The notes below the pieces were generated by a model. It was not told the DNA's origin. It saw nothing but the letters and a program-made list of their open reading frames with translations, and made no database searches. Below, one piece after another: positions 12,104 through 62,949 of a stretch of 64,000 nt of DNA. The DNA comes from an uncultured Chitinophaga sp. (GTDB taxonomy: Bacteria > Bacteroidota > Bacteroidia > Chitinophagales > Chitinophagaceae). Positions within the stretch are counted from its first letter, which is position 1. Every line of letters begins with the position of its first letter. The position numbers and the translations under genes were made by a program. Where the stretch lies: NCBI RefSeq assembly GCF_902168175.1, contig NZ_CABHOU010000025.1, forward strand, positions 558,001-622,000. Direction: 5' to 3'.

Positions 12104-12532
12104 TTAGTTGTCGTTAGATGCAACGGCTTTAGGAGCTTCGTCCTTAGCAGCCGCCTGCGCATCGCGGGTATTTTTTTGTACGGTAATAGCGCCAAATACG
12201 CTGAGCAGGAAGGCGAAGGCGTAAAAACCTTTTTCACTCGGCAACAGTGTGGCATTCCACAAACCGATGATGAGCAACACGATGGTGAGCAACATCGATA
12301 CCCAGCTGATGCCGTAATAAATATCCGTAACCGGCACTCCTTCGAGGCGGTCGCGCACACATTTTTGTACGGAAACTGCAGCAAAAAGGCCATACATCAA
12401 CACAGTGAAGTAATATCCTTTTTCATTTAACTGCATCGTAGCGTTGAAGAGGCCAATGTTAAAGCCGGCAATACCGGCGAATAATGCAACCCAGGAGGCG
12501 GCAACAAAGGCAACAGACGGTTTTTGTTTCAT
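12104..12532 (-). CDS. YiaA/YiaB family inner membrane protein
   Basis: A 142-residue membrane protein with two tandem YiaA/YiaB-like modules. Each has a pair of helices: about residues 8–30 and 38–55, then 70–92 and 98–115. The two modules share a pattern ([15 protein letters not shown] against [16 protein letters not shown]). The C-terminal 25 residues are a soluble Ala/Lys/Asp-rich tail. In E. coli these are small inner membrane proteins of unknown function. A terminator follows it. Confidence 0.85.
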
Positions 12533-12607
12533 GTTGTACGTTATAGGTGATAAATGTGACGGAAAAATAGATAAATTCTCCGTACTCCAACACCCATTAG
12601 GGAAACT

Positions 12608-13069
12608 TTAACTATTATGGCATAACCATGTATCCACGCTACGCATGGTTTCTGTTAAATATTCCTTCGCTTCTTCCACGAAACTAATACCACATTTAAA
12701 ATAACCAAGGCTGATGAGATGCAACTGGTTTTTAAGCTCGTTTTCAGACACAAAATCACTTTCGAGAAACGCGTGAAAGCGCGGGATATCGGAAGTACAA
12801 AGTTGTATGGCCTGAATATAAAAATCGTGCGTGGCGCGGGCATGAGAGGCCAGCAACATATCTTCCATTTCGGAGAGATATTGTCCGCCGGAGTTAAATA
12901 ACAATTGTGAAAAACCGCCCTGCGTAAGATTATACGTAAAGAAATCTGCCAGCATTAAAGTGTTTACCTGTTCGGGCACCTTTGCGGGGCGTTGGGTTTG
13001 CATGTACTGCCGCGTTTTATCGGCAAGGTCGTAAAGCTGCTGTTCTGGCTGTGGCTGAGCCGTTTCCAT
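12608..13069 (-). CDS. DMP19/DUF4375-like protein
   Basis: A protein of 153 residues from the ATG at 13069 (METAQP); an upstream ATG at 13111 would add 14 residues that look unlike the family. The core LADFFTYNLTQGGF-QLLFNSGG with following helices resembles DUF4375 (DMP19 family). The remainder is helical and acidic, with no membrane span. DMP19 homologues include DNA-mimic proteins, but many family members are uncharacterised, so function stays open. Confidence 0.65.
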   Translation of the reverse strand: METAQPQPEQQLYDLADKTRQYMQTQRPAKVPEQVNTLMLADFFTYNLTQGGFSQLLFNSGGQYLSEMEDMLLASHARATHDFYIQAIQLCTSDIPRFHAFLESDFVSENELKNQLHLISLGYFKCGISFVEEAKEYLTETMRSVDTWLCHNS

Positions 13070-34441: not shown

Positions 34442-35341
34442 TTATCCTTTCAAAAAACGTTCAACCTTCTGCATGGTCATTTCAGGTAAATCGCTGCTAA
34501 GTACCTTAAACCTCGCCACCTTCATTTCACCAAACCATTTTTCCATCACCTTTCGGATCACATCTTCATCATTTTTATTCCTGGCAGATGGGGAAACCTC
34601 CAGCACAAGCACCTCCAGTTGCTGCAAATCTGCCCGTGTACTAATCAGGCCAAAATCCTGCTTGTCCATTTCCGCAGCCCAGCTCTGATTATTCCGCAAT
34701 TTGTATTTATCAAAGAGATCAGGCAGAAGATAGGCATAACGATTGGCGGTTACATCCCTGGAGTCCTGGTGGTAGATATAACCGTCAGTGAAAACAACGA
34801 TGAGGTTACGGTATGCCTCATCTTCATCTACAGCAATCTCCTTAACATCATTCTTGAAAAAGCGCCAGATGTCGGATCCGGGCCAAACAGCCTGGCGGAC
34901 AGCGGTACGATAAATACTACTGATGTTTTCGGTAACCGTATGTCGAAGGTTGTCATAAATCACTTTCTTGCCTTTCGTATCCATTTTCGAAAGGTCTATA
35001 TTCAGGTTCTTCACCGCCTGGTTAATACCGGCATCCGGTGGGTTGGGATGAAAAATGATCCGCATTTTTCCTTTCGCCATAAAACTGCCTTTTTTTTCCA
35101 TCTGATCTAAAAAATACTTGGTGAAGTAACTGATCAGGATACTATCGCGGTCGATATGTGCTGGTACCGCGGAGTTCAGCTTCGGATCAATCCTATCGGA
35201 AAGGTCGAGGAGAATAGTGAGGTTTAGCTGTTTTTCAGTTTTAGACGCAGATGTGGGTGGTTTTTCGTCGGAAGTTTCGGGTGATGTCTGTCCGCAGCCA
35301 GCGCCTAATAGCCATAAGACTAAAAAAATAAAATGTTTCAT
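34442..35341 (-). CDS. vWA-like lipoprotein
   Basis: A 299-residue protein. The lipoprotein signal ends at GAGC with Cys16. The mature protein shows a von Willebrand A-like pattern: LTILLDLSDRI (Asp46-x-Ser48, a MIDAS-like start), then LIVVFTDGYIY near 185, and a long helix–strand alternation. It would be anchored in a membrane facing the periplasm or surface. Its start codon overlaps the stop of the coiled-coil membrane protein by one base (TAATG), so the two are translationally coupled. Confidence 0.75.
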   Translation of the reverse strand: MKHFIFLVLWLLGAGCGQTSPETSDEKPPTSASKTEKQLNLTILLDLSDRIDPKLNSAVPAHIDRDSILISYFTKYFLDQMEKKGSFMAKGKMRIIFHPNPPDAGINQAVKNLNIDLSKMDTKGKKVIYDNLRHTVTENISSIYRTAVRQAVWPGSDIWRFFKNDVKEIAVDEDEAYRNLIVVFTDGYIYHQDSRDVTANRYAYLLPDLFDKYKLRNNQSWAAEMDKQDFGLISTRADLQQLEVLVLEVSPSARNKNDEDVIRKVMEKWFGEMKVARFKVLSSDLPEMTMQKVERFLKG

Positions 35342-36576
35342 TAGTTATAGATTTCGGGATAATTGTAAATAGCATCGCGTACAAATTGATGCACCGTTTC
35401 TGAGGCGGCATCCATCCTGTCGGGACCTCCACCATTCTCTTTCATCCATGCCAGCCAGCCGGCCATAAAAGCAAAAGCGATCTGTTCAAATTCCTTTGGA
35501 ATGATGGTGCTGTGGATAGACTCATTCAGTTTTTTCACCCTGGTTTTGGTGATATCGATCTGGTGCGTCATCTTTTCTACTTCCAGGTTCAGCTCCAGGA
35601 TTTCGGCCTGTAGGTCTATGATCGTTTTCTCTTTCTCACGCAGTGCCACCTTTACTTTATCGAGTTTCCCGAAAGCGGCGAGTACAAAATCGAGTACAAA
35701 GCCCCATATCAGGTATACGATGAAACCGGCAAAAATGATGATCCAGAAATTGATCGAACTGATGGCGAGGCGGATCGAGTATTCTGGCAGATTGGCGCCA
35801 AAGCTGTTACTAGACTTAATCTCGTAAATTTTCTCTGTGATATCATAAGCTAGAAATGCATCGAAAAGAAAGGTCACAACTACTAACATTGCGATCTTCA
35901 AATACCGGGAGTACCCCTTTCCCTCCTGCATTTTATGTATAAGGTATCCTAGTCCCAGGAACACGAAGGGGATGGTGAGGATCAGCACCAATTCCATCAC
36001 CCCGTCCTTAAATGCTTTAGACAACGCCTGCGCATCGAAAATTGCATTTGCCACCCCAATCGCGCTCAGGGAGAATTCTTTAAAAAATGCAGAATAGGAA
36101 GCAGAACTATAAAAGGTAAAAAGGTAAACCGTTAAAAAAAGTAAAATGATCAAACCGATATAAAAGCTAGGTTTATCGCCAGAGTCGCCGATAATGTCCT
36201 GCGGATTTTTCCTGATGTGGGCTGCTTCTTCCTTACTGATTTCGATGCGCTGTTTCAAGGCGGGTACTTTTTCATCAACCACCATCCTGATCCTGTTCTC
36301 CCAGCGGGAAATATGTCCCTTCTGCTCTTCCAGCGACATTCTTATCGGCCGTTTCAGTTCTTCCTGTTTACCATGGTCATCTTTGATCTGGTCTTTAAAA
36401 GTGAAATACAATTTTTGGAGACATACTTTTAAACCCGCCAGGCTGCCTCCTAAAAGTCCGGCCTGCATATGCCCTTCTTCCTGCGGGTTACCTGGTTTGG
36501 ATGGCCGTTTTGCCGCGGAAGTCGGCAAAAGTTCTTTAAGGGCGAAAAGCCCCTTGGTTATTTTCGTTAAACTCAT
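35341..36576 (-). CDS. four-helix membrane protein with C-terminal coiled coil
   Basis: A 411-residue protein without a known family. The N-terminal 130 residues are soluble and charged, with a helical segment. Four membrane helices lie at about residues 138–158, 200–218, 226–247 and 270–297. A long heptad-rich coiled coil follows (about 302–355, KVKVALREKEKTIIDLQAEI and onward). The last 45 residues include a Trp/Met-rich FAFMAGWLAWMKENGGG. It is 3 bases after TerB and coupled to the vWA-like lipoprotein. It may be the scaffold of the system. Confidence 0.75.
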   Translation of the reverse strand: MSLTKITKGLFALKELLPTSAAKRPSKPGNPQEEGHMQAGLLGGSLAGLKVCLQKLYFTFKDQIKDDHGKQEELKRPIRMSLEEQKGHISRWENRIRMVVDEKVPALKQRIEISKEEAAHIRKNPQDIIGDSGDKPSFYIGLIILLFLTVYLFTFYSSASYSAFFKEFSLSAIGVANAIFDAQALSKAFKDGVMELVLILTIPFVFLGLGYLIHKMQEGKGYSRYLKIAMLVVVTFLFDAFLAYDITEKIYEIKSSNSFGANLPEYSIRLAISSINFWIIIFAGFIVYLIWGFVLDFVLAAFGKLDKVKVALREKEKTIIDLQAEILELNLEVEKMTHQIDITKTRVKKLNESIHSTIIPKEFEQIAFAFMAGWLAWMKENGGGPDRMDAASETVHQFVRDAIYNYPEIYN

Positions 36577-36579
36577 AAC

Positions 36580-36984
36580 TTAAAGATTATTTGATACAGT
36601 TAGCAGAATCGCTTCTTTAGGCGTTTTTTTGAAAGCCTCATCTAAGAGGTAATCGCAGATAGGGCCAACGTTCTGGTCTTCAAATCCGAAGCGGGAGCAG
36701 AATCGTTCCAGCGTTCCGCGCTCTTCAGGATCGAGGCGACCATCCGACCAGGCGATAAGACTAAGATCATAAAGACAATCTATCTTCTCCAACACTGACT
36801 GCGGAGGAAGAATGTCGACATTGCCAGATTGTAATAGCAATGCATCGATCTCTTCCCGGGTAATACCGCGATCCTGGCCAATGAGGTAGAGGGCCTCCAA
36901 TTCCTTGAGGCCTATATCAGCATCAGAAAGTGCCATTTGATAAAGATGGAGAAAATGATTTTTCAACTCGGGAGTAAGCGCCAT
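36580..36984 (-). CDS. TerB-like protein
   Basis: A protein of 134 residues from the ATG at 36984 (MALTPE); an ATG at 37005 adds seven residues. It is all-helical with a duplicated acidic TerB pattern: LYQMALSDADIGLKELEALYLIG near 14–36 and LSLIAWSDGRLDPEERGTLERF near 83–104, the D-x-D/E loops being likely metal sites. TerB-like domains accompany vWA, TerD and membrane modules in predicted membrane-associated defence complexes. It lies between DUF1508 and the coiled-coil membrane protein in the operon. Confidence 0.78.
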   Translation of the reverse strand: MALTPELKNHFLHLYQMALSDADIGLKELEALYLIGQDRGITREEIDALLLQSGNVDILPPQSVLEKIDCLYDLSLIAWSDGRLDPEERGTLERFCSRFGFEDQNVGPICDYLLDEAFKKTPKEAILLTVSNNL

Positions 36985-37071
36985 AAAAGCAATTTTTACG
37001 ATCATTAATTAAAAAAAAACAGGAAATGGACGTAGGGATAATAAACGGACAGACCTGGATAACAACATCTA

Positions 37072-37398
37072 TTAGCTCAAATCCAATATATTAGCGATTG
37101 GGGCATTCCGCTTAACAGCTTCAATACCTCGGTCCCGGCTGTATAAAGTTGCATAACTTTCGCTGCGGCCTATGACCAGGCCGTTTGCCGCACGCAGGTT
37201 AAAGCGGTAATTACCATCGGCATCCTTTCGCTCATAACGCTCGTCCAAAGGCGCGTTTCGTTTTACTGTTGCAATTCCATCACTGCAAGACTGGTTGGTA
37301 GAATATGTCTCGCTCGTTAATATGATCTCTCCGTTTGGAGCTTTTAGGTTGAAGCGAAACTGTGTAGTTTTTCTGATCTCAAATTTGGGATTGTTCAT
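37072..37398 (-). CDS. YegP/DUF1508 family protein in the caspase operon
   Basis: A 108-residue protein with two DUF1508 repeats: FRFNLKAPNGEIILTSETYST and YRFNLRAANGLVIGRSESYAT, each ending in a VKRNAP turn. It is close in design to the separate YegP at 30194–30526. Gaps to its operon neighbours are 18 bases (to TIR–FGE) and 87 bases (to TerB). Its presence with signalling and effector genes suggests a ligand- or peptide-binding accessory role, but that is inference. Confidence 0.88.
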   Translation of the reverse strand: MNNPKFEIRKTTQFRFNLKAPNGEIILTSETYSTNQSCSDGIATVKRNAPLDERYERKDADGNYRFNLRAANGLVIGRSESYATLYSRDRGIEAVKRNAPIANILDLS

Positions 37399-37416: not shown

Positions 37417-38511
37417 TTAATTTTTACTTTTCCATACCACACGGAAACCTGTACTCTCCGATCTGCTATCTGGCTCCTGCTTACCGCGAAATTTAACATC
37501 AAGTCCGTTTACCGGCTTAACCGTGCTGGTATATGCGCCACCTCTCACCACTTTATAGGTTATTGTTCCCCCATACCAGTCTTCGCACCACTCTCCAACA
37601 TTGCCCGTCATATCATACAAACCGAATTGGTTTGCTGATTTCCGTGCAACGTTATCGGGCTTTTTTCGGTTATAAACAGCGACTTTAGATGCGTTATTGC
37701 CCCCACTGTAATTTGTGTTGCCTCCCCCTGTGGCCGCATACTCCCATTCATGTTCTGAAGGTAATCGGCCACCCGACCATTTGCAGAAAGCATCCGCCTC
37801 ATACCATGTTACATTTCTCACAGGTCCGCCTTCGCGGGAGGAATACGGTTGCGGCGGGAATGTAATTTTCTGGTTATCACAAAAAGCCCTGAATTGAGCA
37901 ACTGTTACCTCAGTATTGCTGATGTAGAAAGAATCGATGCCGGAACTGTCCGTTGCAGGCATCACAATTAATACCTGTTCCAGCCGGCGAGCCGGGGTAA
38001 TATCTGTTTGCGTATCCCTCCAAAAGAAAGATGCAATGAGGCCCGCTATTAATGCTACCGACAGCATTGCCCAAACAGATCTTCGTTCCGCTTTCTTTTG
38101 AGGAATGATTTTTCGCGCAAGCATATCGGCTATTTCCGCCGGGTTATTATCCCAGTTTACAGATACCAGGTGTTTGGAGATACCATCGACAGGGGTACTA
38201 TCGAGGCGTAGCTGCAAAATATGTTGCCTGTTCCGTACCGGTTTCGCAATAGCCACCTGTCGTTCGATGTTCGACCAGTACTTTTGCACAAACACCCCGC
38301 TGGTAATCAATAACACAAACCTGGACCGCTTTCCATAGGCATCATTTGTGAGACTGATAATATGTTGTCCCCAACTTTCTGCCGCCCTTTCTTTATAATA
38401 ATAGTAACGGATATTGCGTTTCTTAAGCTCCGTGGCTATTTGTTCTGCAACGTGCAAATCCTCCTCCGCAACAGAGATCGCAACATCGTACTTATAATAG
38501 CGTGCTATCAT
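37417..38511 (-). CDS. TIR-like domain – transmembrane – FGE-sulfatase fusion
   Basis: A 364-residue three-part protein. Residues 5–135 form a TIR-like domain (YDVAISVAEED, then SGVFVQKYWSNIERQ with Glu83 at the position of the TIR NADase Glu). A single membrane helix spans about 146–163. Residues 178–364 form a formylglycine-generating-enzyme/SUMF1-like domain: SNTEVTVAQFRAFC, VTWYEADAFCKWSGGRLPSEHEWEYA, FGLYDMTGNVGEWCEDW and STGFRVVWK. The TIR part would be cytoplasmic and the FGE part periplasmic. It follows the caspase gene by 20 bases. Confidence 0.85.
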   Translation of the reverse strand: MIARYYKYDVAISVAEEDLHVAEQIATELKKRNIRYYYYKERAAESWGQHIISLTNDAYGKRSRFVLLITSGVFVQKYWSNIERQVAIAKPVRNRQHILQLRLDSTPVDGISKHLVSVNWDNNPAEIADMLARKIIPQKKAERRSVWAMLSVALIAGLIASFFWRDTQTDITPARRLEQVLIVMPATDSSGIDSFYISNTEVTVAQFRAFCDNQKITFPPQPYSSREGGPVRNVTWYEADAFCKWSGGRLPSEHEWEYAATGGGNTNYSGGNNASKVAVYNRKKPDNVARKSANQFGLYDMTGNVGEWCEDWYGGTITYKVVRGGAYTSTVKPVNGLDVKFRGKQEPDSRSESTGFRVVWKSKN

Positions 38512-38531: not shown

Positions 38532-39473
38532 CTAGATCCTGTTATTACTAAGGAGTTTCCAATAATAGATACCAAGCGGTGTTAACCGGCAACTTTTGTT
38601 TTTCATCGCAGCCCAATACATATACTCCTCTCCGACAGGTTCTACCAGGCCTATAAGCTGCAAACGCCGGAGCAACTTGAAAGTATTGATGTTTATTTCG
38701 TTGGGTTGTTCGGTCGTGTATTCATAGCTGGGATCTAAAGGAAACTCCGATTCCACCTTGGGGAAAACAGAGATCAGCTTACGCAGTTCCGGCAAAGGCA
38801 CAACAGGCGTTACTTTACGCAGGCAAACCGATCTTACAATATTCGATTTAAAAACCGGGCGTTGCGCCCAACTACCCAACGCCTTCTCTATATAACTATA
38901 AATACTGCCCACACTAATATCGCCGGCAATATCGGCCGCCCCGCCCTTAAGTGCTTCCAGTAATAAACTGGTAAATACACCGTGCCCGCCTACCTCTATT
39001 GATGATTCAGTAATTCTGCTCGAGGCTAATACCACCACTCCTTTTTCCAGAAAAGCCGCCGTATTTTCTGATATTGCCGGGGTTCCCATTGCGCCTGAAT
39101 GACAACAATCGAGGATCACGATCTTATGCCGCGCTTTTGACAAACTCACCATTTTTAGGACATCGTCCATTGAAATACCTTCGTCGTTCCGATTGAAATC
39201 AGGCGTCATGATATATCCCCCTGAATCCGTTACACAACCATGGCCCGAGAAATAAAAGAGGCTCATCTCGTCCTCGGCTTTAAATACATCCAATATCAGC
39301 GAGCGCAACGAACCCTTCGATTTAATATCTGTGCATAACATCACATCGAAATTCGGCGAGCCGTCCGCATTACTGTTCAGCAATTCGGCAACCTGGGTTG
39401 CGTCATTAACGCAGCCCATAAGCCTGGCGCTTCCTGGATAGTCGTTAATACCTACGACAAGTGCTTTCTTCAT
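38532..39473 (-). CDS. caspase family (peptidase C14) protein
   Basis: A 313-residue cytoplasmic cysteine protease. The p20-like core begins KKALVVGINDYPGSARLMGCVNDA. The catalytic His78 lies in YFSGHG and Cys124 in LDCCHSG, the metacaspase-type dyad. A region after residue 225 (about 90 residues) is helical and may be a winged-helix-like or target-recognition domain (NTFKLLRRLQLIGLVEPVG). It is the first gene of a seven-gene minus-strand operon and divergent from an acidic-tail protein. A role as a death effector or signalling protease is inferred. Confidence 0.9.
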   Translation of the reverse strand: MKKALVVGINDYPGSARLMGCVNDATQVAELLNSNADGSPNFDVMLCTDIKSKGSLRSLILDVFKAEDEMSLFYFSGHGCVTDSGGYIMTPDFNRNDEGISMDDVLKMVSLSKARHKIVILDCCHSGAMGTPAISENTAAFLEKGVVVLASSRITESSIEVGGHGVFTSLLLEALKGGAADIAGDISVGSIYSYIEKALGSWAQRPVFKSNIVRSVCLRKVTPVVPLPELRKLISVFPKVESEFPLDPSYEYTTEQPNEININTFKLLRRLQLIGLVEPVGEEYMYWAAMKNKSCRLTPLGIYYWKLLSNNRI

Positions 39474-39720
39474 TAAAAACTGTTTAAGGTGAGGGGCCTG
39501 TTTTTCTGTTTACGCAACAAAGGTGAGAATGTATGAGGTAGGAAAAAACCTGTATCAGAGGGGGAAAAATCCCCTTTTTCGAAACGTACCGGATATTCCC
39601 CTTAAGCCAGGGGGGATTTTTCCTGTATTCAAAGTCAGGTGATTTTTGTAGTCAAAATCATCGATAGTTTCGCTTCGTTAAATTCATTTAAACCTCATTC
39701 TTTGAACAAAAAACTACATT
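39474..39720. promoter_or_regulatory. divergent control region with inverted repeats
   Basis: These 247 bases separate the caspase operon from the divergent genes. A 12-base perfect inverted repeat GGAAAAATCCCC (39563–39574) / GGGGATTTTTCC (39612–39623) is seen. The first arm also sits in a local GGGGAAAAATCCCC palindrome followed by T5. A short CCTGTAT motif occurs twice (39549–39555, 39622–39628). Near-consensus -7 elements are CACCTTTG (−, 39518–39525) and GATTTTTG (+, 39641–39648). Confidence 0.6.
39563..39623. repeat. 12-base inverted repeat in the divergent region
   Basis: GGAAAAATCCCC (39563–39574) and GGGGATTTTTCC (39612–39623) are exact reverse complements, 37 bases apart. They could be paired operators or form a large hairpin. 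Confidence 0.65.
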
Positions 39721-40227
39721 ATGCAACGTTATGTAACAGCCAAGCCCCTTCCCTTTTTCTATGTTGGAAAACAGGTGTCTAACGACAGGATTACCCGCTT
39801 TAAAAATCAAAAGCACACACTGTTGAGCCAGGCACTGGGCAAGTCCGACACCAGGTCGATCTGGTACTCCAAAGAACATTTTGTAAAGCTGTTGGAAGAA
39901 ATCGAATTTGCCGGTGGCGATGGTGTCAGGATCTCAATGGGTATGTATGAAGAAGGGCACGAGTTTGCCGGACAATTATGCCTGTTATTTAACAGTACTC
40001 GCCCGGAAACCGTTGGGAATACACTTATTCATAGCACTGTTGTGCTGGAAAACGAACCGGACTTCGCTGAAAGGTCATCTTTGCCAAGGGAAATCATTCA
40101 ATTTCCTGGCGATGGCACGACCACAGACATCCGGGACTTCAATTTGGGTTCCCCTTGTCCACCCCGCTGTGAGGACGATGGAGATGGTGACGATGACGGG
40201 GAAGGCGGAGATGGCGGAGGTAATTAG
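39721..40227 (+). CDS. hypothetical protein with acidic Gly/Asp tail
   Basis: A 168-residue protein with no recognised domain. Residues 1–140 are mixed α/β and soluble (KPLPFFYVGKQVSNDRITRF; GVRISMGMYEEGHEFAGQLCLLF). After a PCPPRC motif near 144–149 the C-terminus is EDDGDGDDDGEGGDGGGN, an Asp/Gly-rich disordered tail. It is divergent from the caspase gene and 25 bases before a seven-helix membrane protein. It may be a regulated substrate or partner of the caspase operon; that is speculation. Confidence 0.65.
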   Translation: MQRYVTAKPLPFFYVGKQVSNDRITRFKNQKHTLLSQALGKSDTRSIWYSKEHFVKLLEEIEFAGGDGVRISMGMYEEGHEFAGQLCLLFNSTRPETVGNTLIHSTVVLENEPDFAERSSLPREIIQFPGDGTTTDIRDFNLGSPCPPRCEDDGDGDDDGEGGDGGGN

Positions 40228-40252: not shown

Positions 40253-40939
40253 ATGCTGCATCACCTCCTGGGATATGAATATGCATATCTTCTTCCACTG
40301 TTGCTTAGCGCCATTTTTTGTCTGAAAATGTTCCGGCAAAAATGGCCTAAGCAATATCGGACTTTGGCCATACTTATCATTGTATCACTTGCAATAGAAG
40401 TTTTTGCCATTGCATGGAAATGGTATCTGTACGACATGTTCATTCCGGCTTATAAAAAGAGTAATCTTTGGATTTACAACGTGTTTGTTACTATCAGGCT
40501 TGCCATATTACTGGTGCTTTTTTTCCAGAGCATGGAGTCTAAAAAGATCAAAAAAGTAATATTACTTGGCGGGCCTCCAATAGTACTTTTCGGCCTTGTT
40601 AACTATATCAGTATACAGGGCCCTCACCAGTACAATACCTACAGTGTGATCTTCGCACATATTCCGATCATCGTTCTGTGTCTTTGCTACTTCAGGCAAT
40701 TATTAGGGGCAGATAAGATACTTGAACTGCACAAAGAACCTATGGTATGGCTGGTGTTAGGCACTTTTGTTTACCATGTTGCATCGCTGCCGTTCCTCAT
40801 TATGCTTAACTTTCTTAACATGAAAAGTTCGAACTTATCTATGCTTTTTCTCCCAATAAACGACACACTCAATCTCATAATGTGTTCTTCCTATCTAATT
40901 AGTTCAATATGCAACCCACAACAGACTCCACAGCGCTAA
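40253..40939 (+). CDS. seven-helix membrane protein
   Basis: A 228-residue inner-membrane protein with seven hydrophobic segments (about residues 8–27, 38–58, 72–93, 101–120, 127–148, 164–187 and 196–216) and short loops. There is no recognised family. Its last 31 bases overlap the start of the histidine kinase gene, so translation is coupled and the protein may be the sensory input for the kinase, which itself has only one membrane helix. Confidence 0.7.
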   Translation: MLHHLLGYEYAYLLPLLLSAIFCLKMFRQKWPKQYRTLAILIIVSLAIEVFAIAWKWYLYDMFIPAYKKSNLWIYNVFVTIRLAILLVLFFQSMESKKIKKVILLGGPPIVLFGLVNYISIQGPHQYNTYSVIFAHIPIIVLCLCYFRQLLGADKILELHKEPMVWLVLGTFVYHVASLPFLIMLNFLNMKSSNLSMLFLPINDTLNLIMCSSYLISSICNPQQTPQR

Positions 40940-41730
40940 CGATTATCGTATCTACCCTCACATTATTATCCCTTTGTATAGCGATTATATGTTTCCTTTT
41001 TCTCTACCAGCGAAAAAGGTTTCGACATCAACATGAGCTGATGGAAGTTCGGGAAGCCTACAATCAAGCGTTGTTTGAATCAAAATTCGCGATCCAGGAG
41101 CAAACCCTGGACCATATTTCGAAGGAACTGCATGCCAATTTCAGCCATCTCGTTTCACTTATCAATATTAATCTTTCCGAAATATTACCACAGATACCCG
41201 ATAACCAAAGAGAGAACGTGATTGAAACAAAATCGCTGGCCAAGCAATTAATGAGCGATCTGAAGGCATTAAGCGCTAATCTGAACACAGACCATATTAT
41301 TCATATCGGAGTTGGCAAGGCGCTTGAGAACGAACTAAACCGGCTTTCAAAAACAAAAAAATACAAGATAACCTTCATCGTTACCGGCGACGCATATAGA
41401 TTATCAGCTGAACATGAAATAATACTCTTCCGACTCTGCCAGGAAGTGCTTAACAATGTGGTAAAGTATTCCAAAGCCTCTGCAGTTTCGGCCACTCTCG
41501 CCTTTTCCAACGATCACTTTTCATTGACTATTTCCGACAATGGAATTGGCTTTAATGTAGAACGTGCATTGAATCAAAGTGGAGATAAGCAGAGTACAGG
41601 TTTATTGAATATGCAGAAACGGGCCTCCCTGATAAATGCAAAATTCAGCATCCTTAGCCAGGTAGGAAAAGGTACGTTGGTGACCATTGATACCCCTAAC
41701 CCGGAAATACAAAAAACATCCATTTTATGA
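40909..41730 (+). CDS. sensor histidine kinase (NarX/DesK-like)
   Basis: A 273-residue kinase. One membrane helix (residues 9–33) is followed directly by a HisKA_3-like dimerisation helix with His75 in ISKELHANF, and a C-terminal HATPase domain: N box QEVLNNVVKYSKA near 182–194, G1 DNGIGFN near 213–219, and G2 STGLLNMQKRA near 230–240. There is no periplasmic sensor domain. It overlaps the upstream membrane gene by 31 bases and the response regulator gene by 4 bases, which makes a coupled trio. Confidence 0.88.
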   Translation: MQPTTDSTALTIIVSTLTLLSLCIAIICFLFLYQRKRFRHQHELMEVREAYNQALFESKFAIQEQTLDHISKELHANFSHLVSLININLSEILPQIPDNQRENVIETKSLAKQLMSDLKALSANLNTDHIIHIGVGKALENELNRLSKTKKYKITFIVTGDAYRLSAEHEIILFRLCQEVLNNVVKYSKASAVSATLAFSNDHFSLTISDNGIGFNVERALNQSGDKQSTGLLNMQKRASLINAKFSILSQVGKGTLVTIDTPNPEIQKTSIL

Positions 41731-42395
41731 GAACAGGCAACACAAAGCTAAATATTGCAGTAGTCGATGATCATAACTTATTTCGTAAGGGGTTGATCAA
41801 ACTAATTATGTTGGGAGATACTAAAAACAAATACAACATTTTATTTGAAGCGGAAAATGGCATCGACCTCCAAGGAAAAATGATGCAACCCCCATTTCCC
41901 CATATTATTTTGATGGACATTGACATGCCCGATGCCGATGGATTTGAGGCGGTGGAATGGTTACAACGCACCCACCCCGACATCAAAGTACTGGTAATCT
42001 CTATGGTGGAGGCCGAAGCATCCATTTTGCGGATGCTCCGGCTTGGCGTAAAGGGCTATCTTTCAAAAGATATTGAAGTAGAAGATATGCATATGGCGTT
42101 GGAAGCAATTGCCAACAATGGGTTTTATTATTCAGATGTAGCGGCAGAAATACTAAATCAAAATTTAAGTAAATCCGGTAAAACGGAAAGCACTTCTATA
42201 TATCTATCTGAAAATGAGCGTGAGTTCCTAAAGCTTGCTACCACAGACATGACCTATCAGCAAATAGCCGACAAAATGCACTTAAGCTTTAAAACAATTG
42301 ACGGTTACAGAGAGGATTTGTTTAAGCGCCTGCATGTGAAAAACAGAGTAACGCTGGCACTTTATGCGGTGAAGCATGGTATTGTTACGTTGTGA
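41727..42395 (+). CDS. LuxR/NarL-family response regulator
   Basis: A 222-residue two-domain regulator. The receiver has the acidic pair Asp14/Asp15, the phosphorylation site Asp64 in LMDIDMPDADG, and Lys near 115 in KGYLSKDI. The C-terminal LuxR-type HTH runs LSENEREFLKLATTDMTYQQIADKMHLSFKTIDGYREDLF near 155–195. It is the last gene of the trio and overlaps the kinase by ATGA. It may regulate the nearby divergent caspase operon or the acidic-tail gene; no binding site can be assigned. Confidence 0.9.
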   Translation: MRTGNTKLNIAVVDDHNLFRKGLIKLIMLGDTKNKYNILFEAENGIDLQGKMMQPPFPHIILMDIDMPDADGFEAVEWLQRTHPDIKVLVISMVEAEASILRMLRLGVKGYLSKDIEVEDMHMALEAIANNGFYYSDVAAEILNQNLSKSGKTESTSIYLSENEREFLKLATTDMTYQQIADKMHLSFKTIDGYREDLFKRLHVKNRVTLALYAVKHGIVTL

Positions 42396-58041: not shown

Positions 58042-61000
58042 TTACCTCACCAACATAATCACTCCTTTATACTCGAACAACGTTTTCTCCTCACACTCCG
58101 CCTCTATGAAATACAGGTAAGCGCCCGACTCCGCCTTTCTGCCATGCCACGTACCATCCCAACCCACGCTGCGGTCGTTCACCTGGAAACGCTGACGCTC
58201 GTACATCAGGTTGCCCCAACGATTGTAAATACGCATCGAACGGATTTCGCGGATGCCACTGCCTTTTGGAAAGAAAAGATCATTAACACCATCGGCATTC
58301 GGCGTGAAAGCGGAAGGAATGAACACCGCACCCTGGTTACAGACCAGTTGTACCAGCACATCATCTGTGGCTTTGCAGCCGTAGGCATTTTCCACTGTGA
58401 TGGTGTAAACGGTAGATTTATTCAGCAATACCTGCGGGTTCAGACAAGTGCTGCAATCGAGGTACTGGCTCGGCGTCCAGTTAAGTTTGGCGATATCGTT
58501 ACTGGTTTGCGGTGTTAATGTTACCGCTGCCCCGCCAGGCGTAATAATATCCGGACCAGCATTTACCGTTGGCCTGCGCTGCACCGTTACACTTAGTTCT
58601 TCTTCATCGCTAAAGCAGCCATCATTATCCGAACCGGTAACCTTGTAGGTATATATACCAGCATCTACCGGCCTGGCAATAGGATCAGGGGATGTTGGAT
58701 CATTTAAATCATCGCCCGTCCATATGTAATGATCGGCACCGGTGGCATGCAGCAACAACGGATCACCAATACAAAAATCTGTTACCGGTTTAATTGATAC
58801 CGTGAGTGGGCGCACCACACGCACCGTCACCTCGTCCGTATCCTCACAACCATAACCATTGGTTACAGTTACCCTGTAAGTAGTCGTGTTTTCGGGATTA
58901 GCTACAGGCGTTGCGATGGCAGCATTATTTAACGAAGCCGCATTGTCCCACAGGTAACCCGTTCCACCCACTGCTGTTAACGAAACACTTTCCCCCAAAC
59001 AGATATAACTGGCCGATGCGCTCACCTTAACAACGGGTAACGGTAAAATATTGATGGCATGATCGGCAGTGTCCATACAGCCATTATCGCTGGTTACAAT
59101 CAAACGCACATCGTGGTTCCCCGCCACTGTAAACCGCTGTGCCTGCGGTGTTGCCACCGAACCGGAACCCTCAGTACCAAAAGTCCAGTTCCACTTAGTA
59201 GTGCTTTGGTCGGCTTTCGTTAGTACTGAAACGAAAAGCACATCTTCTTCTGCACAGGCCTCCAGAGGACCAGTAAAGCTGACTACAGGTTTTTGCAATA
59301 CTTTCAGCGGTTGGGTAACGGTTTGCTCACAACCAAACGCGGTAAGCACATGTAATTTCACTTCGGGGCTACCAGGTTTGTTGCCGTACAAAACTGGCGT
59401 AGGTGTACCTTCTCCAGTCATTGTAAGTCCATCCCCCAGCGTCCAGGTGTATACACCGGGCATGTTTTGCTGATCAATAGAAAAACTATTATAATCTACT
59501 TCAAGGTAAAACCATCCGCTATCGCATACCGAAATAGGTCCGGTACTAAGTTTCAGATCGAGGTTATCAATAATGATCGGATCGTCGAGGTAAGCCACGC
59601 CCTTACAACCGGAACCATCGCCGAGAATCAGGCGGGGATTGTATATACCTGCATTTCTAAAGGTATGGGCGATCGACTTGTCTGTCGTTTCTTTCACCTG
59701 GCCATCCGTAAAATCCCAGGAATAACCGGTTACATTACTGGCCTGCACATTAAACGTAATTTCTTTCGTTAAACACCCGCCGGGTGCCGAAGCGGTAATA
59801 CTTCCTTTAGGCCCCTTAATTTCAATCGTTATTTCCTTTTCATCTGTATTACCCGCCTGTCCTGTTACCGACATCTTAATTTTATACACGCCAGAATATA
59901 TGTAAGTATGTTCAGGCGAAAACTCCCGTGATGTACCACCATCTCCAAAATCCCAGAATACTTCCTTCGCATTTAAGGACTTATCCCCGAAGAAATACTT
60001 TACGGGCGGGCAGCCTGAAGTTGGATTTACATACGCTGATGTATAGATAAAATCGGCACTTACATCAGATACTTTAATCTGCTTCTGCAATGTATCAGTA
60101 CAGCCATTACCATCTTTTACGGTGAGCGTAACGTTGTATATACCTTTAACCGTGTAAGTGTGTGGAGCAGGATCTTTTACAATAGATGTACTCCCATCGC
60201 CAAAATCCCATTTATAAGTTACCGGGGCTGTGCTTAATGAAACATCGGTGGTATTACCAATATTGGCCTTCATACCGGGACCAACTATCACCGGTGCTGT
60301 AAAATCTGCATTCGGACCTTTGATGACGACCTGCCCGAATTTGGTAGCACTATGGTAACAACCCGTTTCATCGGTGACCCGCATCGTAACGGTGTAATAA
60401 GCGGCACTGTCATAAATATGCGAAAACGGGCCGGCGTTTGCGTACGTCTGCTCTTTGGAGCCATCGCCATAGTTAAATGTCCACGTTTTAAGCGGCGCAC
60501 TATACTTTGTATCGGTGGCATCTGTAAAAATCATCGGTGTGCCATGACATATGTTGGCGTTACTAAAAGAGAAATCAGCAACAGGGCCGGTTACGGCTAC
60601 TTTAATTTCATGGGAGCTGTCTATACACCCTACTTCATTGTAGGCGTATGTTTTCAGTATCGCTGTACCAGGGTCCAGGTTGGAATACACTTTGGTGGCG
60701 TTACGATAATTGTTATCGTACGAGCCATTTCCGTTATACAGCCAACTGTACAAGTCACGCACTACACTTGGGTCGTTTGCCGCTACGAGGGTCACTACAT
60801 CATTGCGACAGATGGTAGATTTATCGGCGGTGACTACGATCGGGCTGGCAGCAATAATCTTTACTACTTTGGTTAGGGAGCTGGTACAGGTGCCATCGGA
60901 AACAGTCATCGTAATATTGTAGTTCCCATTTTGCGCGTACACATGCGAAACAACGGGTACGGCCGGCGGCGTGTTGTAGTCGATTGTTTGTCCATCTCCA

Positions 61001-62949
61001 AAATCCCATTTATAACTGGTGGCACCAAGTGTTGCATCGGTAATCTTCACCTCCATCCTCTTGTCGCAGTCCACCGAGCCGATGTTGAACTTCGGATACG
61101 GCGCCAATACCGTTACCGTTTGCTGGGCAATTTCGTAACAGGTTTCATTAAACAGCATGAGCGTTACCACAAAATCACCCGGACCGTCCGCAAAGCTATG
61201 TCCCTGATCTGCCAGTCCTGCTCCGGTACTCGTACCATCCCCCCAGTCCCATGAGCGGTGGGTGAAAGGAGGCAACGAAATATCTTTAAACAGTGCCGGA
61301 TTGTTACCACATACCTTTAAAGGCGCTGTAAACACAGGTTTGGGCGTTTTATAAATATCGATCGTTCTAAAATAACTGATGGTTCCGGTACATCCGTCCT
61401 GCGTAGTGTATTTCAGGGTGATGGGGTACTTGCCTTCTAACGGATAAGTATGTACGGGCGATGGATCGTTGGATAAAGGCGAACCATCGCCAAAATCCCA
61501 CTCAAAACTGGTGATAATATCGCCTGTGGTAGATGTATAGCCGAACGACACATTGGCCCCTTCGCAATATTTATTGAAAGGTTCCGAGGCTACTATCTCT
61601 ATTCTGGGTTCTGAGATATTAATTGTTTTATTATTCTGCGATGCAGAGCAACCGTCCGCATTGGTCACCTTAAGCGTTGGATAATACACGCCTGCTGCGT
61701 TAAAGGTAAATGTTGGCTCCTTATCCACAGAAGTTTCACCCGCCCCCGAACTCCATTGCCATTTAGTGGCACCGGGGGTATTATCAGTAAACTTTATAGT
61801 AATAGGCAGCGTACAATAAGGTTTGTTTTCTATCACATAATCGGCCACTGGTACCGGGTTTACCTGTATCTCCTTTTGCACTTTCGCCTCACAGGCACCA
61901 AATAATGCACTTAGGGTGATGGTGTGCTTACCGGGGCTATACATCAACGTAGTAAGATCATTACTGGTACTCACTATATATTCGTCCACCATCCAGTTAA
62001 CAGATGTAGCGACAGGACTCAATACGGCCGTCGTAGTTAGCAGATCGTTCTGGCAAATAGTAGGCGGAATAGAGAAATCAGCACTAAAATTAGCTACATT
62101 AATTTGTACCGGAAATGTTTTACTGGCCTTACAACCAATACTGTTGGTGACATCCAGCTTCATCGTATAACTTCCTTTAGTGGCGTAGGAGTGATTGAGC
62201 GGCTGCTCCAGGGTACTGGTTGTACCATCTCCAAAATCCCAAACGTAGCTGAGGTCGGGGCCGGTAAGCAGGTTGGTAACAGGTACAGTTCCCGGTGCAG
62301 CGCATAAATAAGTGCTGGCCACGGTAAAATCTGCTTTTAGTTCCGGCGATACGGTAATAGCCTTACTGATTGTTTTAACATTAGAGCAACCTCGATTAGT
62401 GGTTACCGTGAGGCTCACGTTATACGACTGCGCATAATTATAAGTATGTGAAGGGTTAGCGCCGGAGCCGGCCGCCCCATCGCCGAAATCCCAGGCATAA
62501 CTAACAATAGCCCCATCGCCCGGGGCGGACTTATCGGCAAAGTTAACGCCTAAGGGCACGCAGCCTTGCGATACATCGAAGCTAAAGTCCGCTACCGGGT
62601 TCTTATACACGGTAATTGTTTTAACTGCTTCGCTGGTGGTGCCGGAGGCTCCTTTTGCCACCAGCTTAACGGTGTATACACCTGGATTGGGAAAACTTGC
62701 GCCGGCAGTGCCCATAAGGTCGGACGTAACGCCGTTCCCGAAATCCCAGCTTACGCTGGTAGCGCCCACTGATGTATTTTTAAAACTTACCACAAGCGGC
62801 GCACAACCACTGGCCACAGAGCCAGGAGAGAGGTCGAATGCCGCAGTTACCTGGGCATACGCGCCGCTGGTGAATAACAAAGCGAATAAAGCCAACCAAA
62901 CCACTCTGCCAATCAGGTTCAAATAGGGTACAGTGTATTTCACGGTCAA
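58042..62949 (-). CDS. giant PKD-repeat protein with T9SS type B C-terminal domain
   Basis: A 1635-residue secreted protein. A signal peptide lies at about residues 10–33 (ending AYAQ). About fourteen PKD domains follow, each marked by a (Y/W)xWDFGDG-type motif (for example near residues 65, 150, 235, 495, 650 and 960). Three Ig-like segments precede a gliding/T9SS type B sorting domain from about 1545 (IPSAFTPNADGVNDLF, MRIYNRWGNLMYE, YKGVIMLVR). It should be exported by T9SS and act at the cell surface, likely in adhesion or gliding. The start codon is TTG (62949) or GTG (62943). Confidence 0.9.
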   Translation of the reverse strand: MTVKYTVPYLNLIGRVVWLALFALLFTSGAYAQVTAAFDLSPGSVASGCAPLVVSFKNTSVGATSVSWDFGNGVTSDLMGTAGASFPNPGVYTVKLVAKGASGTTSEAVKTITVYKNPVADFSFDVSQGCVPLGVNFADKSAPGDGAIVSYAWDFGDGAAGSGANPSHTYNYAQSYNVSLTVTTNRGCSNVKTISKAITVSPELKADFTVASTYLCAAPGTVPVTNLLTGPDLSYVWDFGDGTTSTLEQPLNHSYATKGSYTMKLDVTNSIGCKASKTFPVQINVANFSADFSIPPTICQNDLLTTTAVLSPVATSVNWMVDEYIVSTSNDLTTLMYSPGKHTITLSALFGACEAKVQKEIQVNPVPVADYVIENKPYCTLPITIKFTDNTPGATKWQWSSGAGETSVDKEPTFTFNAAGVYYPTLKVTNADGCSASQNNKTINISEPRIEIVASEPFNKYCEGANVSFGYTSTTGDIITSFEWDFGDGSPLSNDPSPVHTYPLEGKYPITLKYTTQDGCTGTISYFRTIDIYKTPKPVFTAPLKVCGNNPALFKDISLPPFTHRSWDWGDGTSTGAGLADQGHSFADGPGDFVVTLMLFNETCYEIAQQTVTVLAPYPKFNIGSVDCDKRMEVKITDATLGATSYKWDFGDGQTIDYNTPPAVPVVSHVYAQNGNYNITMTVSDGTCTSSLTKVVKIIAASPIVVTADKSTICRNDVVTLVAANDPSVVRDLYSWLYNGNGSYDNNYRNATKVYSNLDPGTAILKTYAYNEVGCIDSSHEIKVAVTGPVADFSFSNANICHGTPMIFTDATDTKYSAPLKTWTFNYGDGSKEQTYANAGPFSHIYDSAAYYTVTMRVTDETGCYHSATKFGQVVIKGPNADFTAPVIVGPGMKANIGNTTDVSLSTAPVTYKWDFGDGSTSIVKDPAPHTYTVKGIYNVTLTVKDGNGCTDTLQKQIKVSDVSADFIYTSAYVNPTSGCPPVKYFFGDKSLNAKEVFWDFGDGGTSREFSPEHTYIYSGVYKIKMSVTGQAGNTDEKEITIEIKGPKGSITASAPGGCLTKEITFNVQASNVTGYSWDFTDGQVKETTDKSIAHTFRNAGIYNPRLILGDGSGCKGVAYLDDPIIIDNLDLKLSTGPISVCDSGWFYLEVDYNSFSIDQQNMPGVYTWTLGDGLTMTGEGTPTPVLYGNKPGSPEVKLHVLTAFGCEQTVTQPLKVLQKPVVSFTGPLEACAEEDVLFVSVLTKADQSTTKWNWTFGTEGSGSVATPQAQRFTVAGNHDVRLIVTSDNGCMDTADHAINILPLPVVKVSASASYICLGESVSLTAVGGTGYLWDNAASLNNAAIATPVANPENTTTYRVTVTNGYGCEDTDEVTVRVVRPLTVSIKPVTDFCIGDPLLLHATGADHYIWTGDDLNDPTSPDPIARPVDAGIYTYKVTGSDNDGCFSDEEELSVTVQRRPTVNAGPDIITPGGAAVTLTPQTSNDIAKLNWTPSQYLDCSTCLNPQVLLNKSTVYTITVENAYGCKATDDVLVQLVCNQGAVFIPSAFTPNADGVNDLFFPKGSGIREIRSMRIYNRWGNLMYERQRFQVNDRSVGWDGTWHGRKAESGAYLYFIEAECEEKTLFEYKGVIMLVR

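Follow-up and report, generated by a model that had tools for sequence, protein, structure and literature searches.

A TIR protein with one predicted membrane helix and an FGE-like domain is encoded beside a caspase-like protease and opposite a two-component module in Chitinophaga

The stretch of DNA analyzed here (hereafter, the window) comprises 64,000 nucleotides from an uncultured Chitinophaga sp. and carries on its minus strand an open reading frame (37417 to 38511) that starts with ATG and encodes a protein of 364 residues. Three parts could be delineated in this protein, namely, a TIR_2 domain (residues 10 to 123; 38143 to 38484, minus strand; Pfam E = 4.1e-9, above the curated cut-off), a single predicted transmembrane helix with a K/R-rich N-terminal flank (residues 145 to 163; 38023 to 38079, minus strand), and an FGE/SUMF1-like domain of the C-type-lectin fold (FGE-sulfatase match at residues 192 to 360, E = 2.1e-36, above the curated cut-off; 37432 to 37938, minus strand). 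The hydrophobic segment that forms the predicted helix has a Kyte-Doolittle mean of 2.09 and is the only one of its kind in the protein. A single such segment occupies the equivalent place in all seven sequences compared, that is, the window protein and six full-length orthologues that share its layout at 36 to 58% identity. Since this layout (hereafter, TIR-TM-FGE) is common to the orthologues and sits inside a conserved gene order, the sequence comparison confirms that it is more than a chance arrangement. The open reading frame, Pfam, hydropathy, and orthologues therefore bear out an earlier sequence-only reading of this DNA, which had reported a TIR domain, one membrane helix, and an FGE-sulfatase domain in one protein.

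The gene lies 20 bp downstream of, and on the same strand as, a gene encoding a caspase-like protease with a conserved C-terminal domain (38532 to 39473, minus strand; Peptidase_C14, E = 4.7e-20), and is followed by a gene for a DUF1508 protein in which two stretches match the Pfam family (37072 to 37398, minus strand). Facing this operon is a plus-strand module of four genes, recognized by comparison of loci and, for the last two, by Pfam or a domain scan as well. It encodes a 168-residue protein with a PCPPRC motif (39721 to 40227), which matched no Pfam family above cut-off; a membrane protein with five predicted helices (40253 to 40939); a histidine kinase with a HATPase_c domain and one N-terminal helix (40909 to 41730); and a response regulator with receiver and LuxR-type HTH domains (41727 to 42395). 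The order caspase, TIR-TM-FGE, DUF1508, facing the four-gene module, is found in all seven TIR-TM-FGE loci, with a gap of 5 to 29 bp between the caspase and TIR genes. In four of the seven, three further minus-strand genes come next, encoding a TerB-like protein that scores under the Pfam cut-off (36580 to 37005), a membrane protein with four predicted helices (35341 to 36576), and a putative lipoprotein with an LGAGC lipobox read by eye (34442 to 35341). Farther along the window, positions 58042 to 62949 encode a 1635-residue PKD-repeat protein with a CHU_C type IX secretion signal domain.

Across the seven TIR-TM-FGE proteins, TIR_2 matches at E < 0.01 in every case and above the Pfam cut-off of 28 bits in five, the other two, from loci L114 and L115, scoring 27.0 and 19.3 bits. 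Residues 5 to 129 of the window protein also match the NCBIfam model Retron_TIR (E = 1.3e-12), far under its whole-protein cut-off, and the architecture differs from that of retron-TIR defence proteins. Trp79 and Glu83 (codon 38263 to 38265) are invariant in all seven sequences and match the positions of the W-x-x-x-E motif in AbTIR (8g83/7uwg) and BtTir (7uxr), so that Glu83 does occupy the place of the catalytic Glu of TIR NADases, as the earlier reading had it. This conservation suggests that the domain may be an active NADase.

Structure prediction, proposed in that reading as a check of the TIR fold, gave a divided answer. A full-length AF2 model built from nine sequences reached a mean pLDDT of only 48.8, with an unreliable FGE half and a TIR half of alternating strands and helices. 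Its best Foldseek matches were the TIR domains of BtpA, PdTIR, and BtTir (target TM 0.45 to 0.61), with PurE chains interspersed. In contrast, a TIR-only model from two sequences (pLDDT 65.8) came closer to other alpha/beta folds: anticodon-binding and related alpha/beta folds ranked first, TIRs appeared at ranks 4, 7, 23, 35, and 37, and VIA-align returned mostly aminoacyl-tRNA-synthetase-type domains (Z about 10), with no TIR among its best 50 rows. With the two models at odds, the TIR assignment rests on sequence.

The name and strong score of the Pfam match could suggest that the C-terminal half is an ordinary sulfatase-maturing FGE, merely tethered by a non-enzymatic TIR domain. This is very improbable, and a role as a maturing enzyme was rejected, because the C-x4-C Cys pair of solved bacterial FGE is absent from all seven TIR-TM-FGE sequences; one orthologue has a Cys further along, off the pair position. 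We take this pair to be the copper site, and its loss, looked for at the suggestion of the earlier reading, fits a non-catalytic FGE. Furthermore, the gene is tied to a caspase gene, and no sulfatase was found among the nine neighbouring proteins and seven further window proteins scanned, which agrees for these sixteen with the claim that no sulfatase is near. Among solved proteins, the Treponema variable protein 2y3c gives the domain its best sequence match (E = 2.2e-16). With the catalytic Cys pair absent throughout, the FGE domain is probably a binding fold. The diversity-generating proteins that had been offered as an example of such use found no counterpart here: the genome has no RVT_1 match at E 0.001 and no second copy of the FGE DNA, and a DGR-diversified FGE was rejected on these two grounds.

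The TIR domain is predicted to be cytoplasmic and the FGE domain periplasmic. The K/R count of the N-terminal flank of the helix equals or exceeds that of the C-terminal flank in all seven sequences. Net charge around the helix favours the TIR-inside orientation in five, ties in the protein of locus L032, and is reversed in that of L112, and for this reason the orientation stays a prediction. The domains and the single helix of the receptor layout proposed earlier thus hold, and its sidedness is predicted, with L112 against it.

Among the matches listed, full-length TIR-TM-FGE proteins occur in at least 6 of 394 family genomes, the window's own included; Chitinophaga japonensis DSM 13484 (L032) is a seventh carrier. 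The TIR-TM-FGE protein is the sole TIR_2 protein of its genome, where a search for ThsB_TIR found none and PF03781 gave seven match rows. A profile of the seven TIR domains aligned with one of seven TIRs from other TIR-caspase loci at an hhalign probability of 99.1 (E = 4.5e-19), with the Glu column in common. No profile match was obtained to the small ThsB-like TIRs upstream of plasmid caspases, and pairwise BLAST against both TIRs of locus L149 returned nothing; close kinship with these small TIRs was rejected on these results. On viral contigs, the TIR query found one partial relative and the TIR profile none.

The caspase belongs to a broader family. Sixteen chosen members align end to end, show 40 to 53% identity to the window's, and keep His78 and Cys124 invariant (16/16). 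Of 394 family genomes, 17 were matched by a profile of the caspase C-terminal domain, as were 5 of 395 phylum genomes; with the window's own genome counted in both, this gives 22 loci in 21 genomes. Seven of these loci had themselves contributed rows to the profile. In 20 of the 22 loci, TIR_2 is found no more than 5.5 kb from the caspase, versus 0.19 expected from TIR_2 counts; the nearest one is 3.7 to 5.0 kb away in five of these 20. In the remaining two loci, from genomes G302 and G512, the gene directly upstream of the caspase encodes a ThsB-like TIR, which brings the loci with a TIR gene within 5.5 kb to 22 of 22, the 7 profile seeds included. Among the 15 non-seed loci, the partner is TIR_2 in 13 and a ThsB-like TIR in 2.

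The pairing extends to plasmids and a virus-like contig. On plasmids, 114 records match the caspase, 45 of them over at least 80% of its length, and a TIR gene lies directly upstream in all 10 records viewed out of 15 listed (8 annotated as TIR, and 2 unnamed ones with ThsB_TIR matches). Virus-like contig L217 carries the caspase followed by a ThsB_TIR gene. In genome G114 (L149), the module faces a ThsB-type TIR gene (PADLOC E = 1.6e-45), a second ThsB-like TIR gene, and the caspase. Taken together, these sequence comparisons make the TIR-caspase gene pairing well supported. Several further associations were seen around relatives of these genes. Behind the TIR-caspase genes of L149, an 89-residue protein (12432 to 12701) is weakly Cas2-like (PADLOC E = 0.014). 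In genome G212, two additional members of the caspase family have TIR-NB-ARC and Roc-TIR proteins encoded nearby (L200, 12984 to 16580; L201, 5948 to 8929). On the E. coli ET210 chromosome (L244), a TIR gene directly upstream of a caspase-family gene has DNA methyltransferase and restriction subunit genes nearby.

The adjoining genes and the conserved W79 and E83 would also suit a system in which the TIR itself kills: clustered TIR-TM-FGE proteins would deplete NAD+, and the caspase, rather than being activated by a messenger, would act on the TIR or a partner, for example by freeing the TIR from the membrane. Passages of PMC12847820 indicate that some TIR NADases do deplete NAD+ directly. However, one caspase family pairs with very different TIRs, small ThsB-like ones included, and a common diffusible signal fits such varied partners better than a specific cleavage partnership does. 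We therefore regard killing by the TIR itself as unlikely.

The distribution of the two-component module was examined in 23 loci, namely, the 22 caspase-family loci plus L032; because these loci are kin to each other, the counts drawn from them lack independence. In 14 loci (the seven TIR-TM-FGE loci, L149, L191, and L194 to L198), the caspase has kinase and regulator genes facing it. The module membrane protein was recognized in all 14, and the first protein by profile in 10; in L194, L196, and L197 it was recognized by place, size, and a PCPxxC motif alone, and in L195 none was seen. In L198, a gene of no recognized identity follows the regulator gene.

What varies among these loci is the domain beyond the membrane segment. 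In 12 of the 14 module loci, a TIR or SEFIR domain is joined to a hydrophobic segment and a further domain, which is FGE in seven, WG repeats in two (L194 and L198), and DUF3761-like in three (L195 to L197). The N-terminal domain of the WG-type proteins best fits bSEFIR (PADLOC, NCBIfam), matching at 2e-53 in L194 and 2.7e-43 in L198, with an architecture that differs from that of bSEFIR. The DUF3761-like assignment falls short of the Pfam cut-off for L195 and L197, and for L196 it is based solely on a CSHHGGV motif. Ten of the 12 proteins have a clear helix (19-residue mean of at least 2.0), the helix being weak in L195 (1.30) and L196 (1.52). Gene placement is variable as well: the TIR gene comes after the regulator gene in L195 to L197, and in L198 four genes separate it from the caspase, at a distance of about 4.9 kb. 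L194 (10627 to 14387) and L198 (5366 to 9168) share a run of four similar-sized genes with signal-like N-termini near the caspase and TIR genes. None of the nine loci without a kinase or regulator match in the available stretch had the TIR-helix-outer-domain layout among the 12 TIR proteins checked; of these stretches, L192 is a 4.7-kb contig, too short to judge, and L193 and L199 span 12 to 13 kb. A hydrophobic stretch does occur at the N terminus of an L193 TIR, and one of the L204 TIRs reaches 1.72 within its domain.

Between the divergent operons of the window lies an element, GGAAAAAACCTGTA..GGGGAAAAATCCCCTTTTT..GGGGATTTTTCCTGTATT (39541 to 39629, no strand assigned), which comparison of intergenic regions makes a candidate regulator site. 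With small variations it is recognizable in 8 of the 12 intergenic regions extracted (the seven TIR-TM-FGE loci and L191) and was not recognized in L149, L194, L196, or L198. It was also absent from all 18 caspase-free copies of the module searched, and may therefore be a feature of the caspase locus and not of the regulator family. On its own, the core is not rare, with 5 genome matches at no more than one mismatch versus 4 for the reversed pattern, and has one exact copy elsewhere in the genome. Three overlapping terminator-like hits at 39595 to 39617 fall inside the element, so that an RNA hairpin may make up part of it. A search for sigma-70-type promoters in the intergenic region found none, a weak test for this phylum. 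The intergenic regions of L194, L196, and L198 contain palindromes of the ATACCTA..TAGGTAT type between caspase and module, perfect in L194 and L196 and unlike the window's element; these are perhaps the site of a second regulator class.

A facing kinase-regulator module in 14 of 23 loci, together with an intergenic element in 8 of 12 regions, would also suit an envelope-stress or developmental programmed-death module in which the two-component system is the real sensor, the TIR and caspase are its output, and phage immunity is not involved. Relatives of the module point the same way. Relatives of its first protein occur in 61 of 244 family genomes, and module relatives away from any caspase were seen (L150 to L168), those of L155 having comEC- and purH-type genes as neighbours; the module alone is consequently no proof of immunity. 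On the other hand, the patchy occurrence of the caspase (in 17 of the 394 family genomes and in 5 of the 395 from the phylum, with the window's own genome in each count), its relatives on plasmids and a virus-like contig, and its changing TIR partners are all typical of defence genes. On balance, we consider a programmed-death module rather unlikely.

We give about an even chance to a receptor-type TIR-caspase system, in which killing by the caspase would follow from a signal that the TIR derives from NAD once an outer domain has sensed a cue at the envelope. In such a system, the TIR-helix-FGE protein would span the inner membrane with its TIR inside and its FGE fold in the periplasm, where the latter could bind an envelope cue, candidates being a phage part, a glycan, or envelope damage. 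Binding would gather the TIR domains and turn on their NADase through Glu83. The resulting NAD+-derived nucleotide would activate the adjoining caspase, perhaps via its conserved C-terminal domain, and the activated caspase would degrade cell proteins so that the cell is killed or arrested. The facing two-component module would sense a related signal and set the expression of both operons from their common intergenic region. The sequence-only reading had reached part of this picture, as its receptor layout, Glu position, and non-catalytic FGE find support in the sequence; it overlooked the neighbouring caspase, the facing module, and the variety of outer domains.

Type IV Thoeris, reportedly described by Rousset et al. 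in 2025, consists of a TIR plus a caspase-like protease. Passages of PMC12847820 and PMC13373217 likewise give TIR and caspase-like protease as its components. Compared by description, the TIR-caspase pairing found here appears to resemble it, in that TIR and caspase genes stand together, the caspase has a His/Cys dyad, and homologous plasmid caspases lie directly behind a small TIR gene. Unlike type IV Thoeris, the TIR described here is fused to a membrane helix and FGE, its gene lies downstream of the caspase gene, and opposite the operon stands a two-component module. In type IV Thoeris, the TIR reportedly makes N7-cADPR, which activates the caspase, and the system protects against phage, whereas a messenger and an anti-phage role are what we infer here. 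No Thoeris model of NCBIfam, a set that may lack one for type IV, matched the window caspase.

Other conflict systems share single elements with this locus. FGE (FGS) domains are proposed in passages of PMC8195603 and PMC7159879 to be lectin-like invader sensors, and in a passage of PMC10907252 some C-type-lectin sensors are predicted to be periplasmic. The FGS/FGE conflict systems, as those same passages of PMC7159879 and PMC8195603 present them, also have an FGE fold, a candidate lectin-like sensor, that is linked to TIR or caspase effectors. In contrast to these systems, scans of the neighbouring proteins revealed no NTPase or EAD here, the genome has no reverse transcriptase match, and the FGE is predicted to be periplasmic on a single-span TIR protein. 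The EACC1-caspase two-gene systems, as excerpted from PMC7159879, similarly pair a membrane-spanning component with a caspase. The sole NCBIfam match of the window caspase is caspase_w_EACC1, but at 107.6 bits it falls under the cut-off of 140, and its partner is a TIR protein; an EACC1 system was rejected on this score. Metacaspase-FGE fusions were listed in 2012, and a passage of PMC3501461 shows a cyanobacterial variant with two membrane helices between the caspase and FGE. Caspase and FGE are used together there as well; here, by contrast, they are separate proteins, with FGE fused to TIR. In the open-licence literature searched, FGE-sulfatase and TIR were met together in passages of PMC3501461 alone, and no transmembrane TIR-FGE combination, periplasm-sensing Thoeris TIR, or DUF1508-TIR link was met.

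Toll-like receptors consist of an outer domain of leucine-rich repeats, one helix, and a cytoplasmic TIR. The protein described here is like them in having an outer domain, a single helix, and a TIR predicted to be cytoplasmic, and unlike them in its N-terminal TIR (opposite topology) and in its FGE rather than leucine-rich-repeat outer domain; the likeness is one of layout, and descent is not claimed. On these terms, the locus resembles an alarm of Toll-receptor style that is connected to a cell-death protease. TIR-caspase pairing is already known, and what we rate as new is a membrane-spanning TIR whose outer domain varies and to which a two-component module is linked; no description of this combination was met in the open-licence literature searched, a scope that leaves most subscription journals outside.

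Known bacterial TIR defences are mostly cytoplasmic, with a trigger inside the cell. More tentatively, and at somewhat less than an even chance, the loci described here may represent a class of bacterial TIR/SEFIR receptors that span the membrane, bear an exchangeable outer domain (FGE, WG repeats, or DUF3761-like), and would, each with its own two-component system, pass envelope cues through an NAD-derived messenger to a caspase. Such a class would parallel Toll-receptor-to-caspase signalling by convergence and would add a receptor branch to TIR-caspase (Thoeris-like) immunity. If this is true, sensing would take place at the envelope while a phage enters or even earlier, and Toll-type receptor logic would become testable in bacteria, with the FGE, WG, and DUF3761-like domains offering a natural series for ligand finding by domain exchange.
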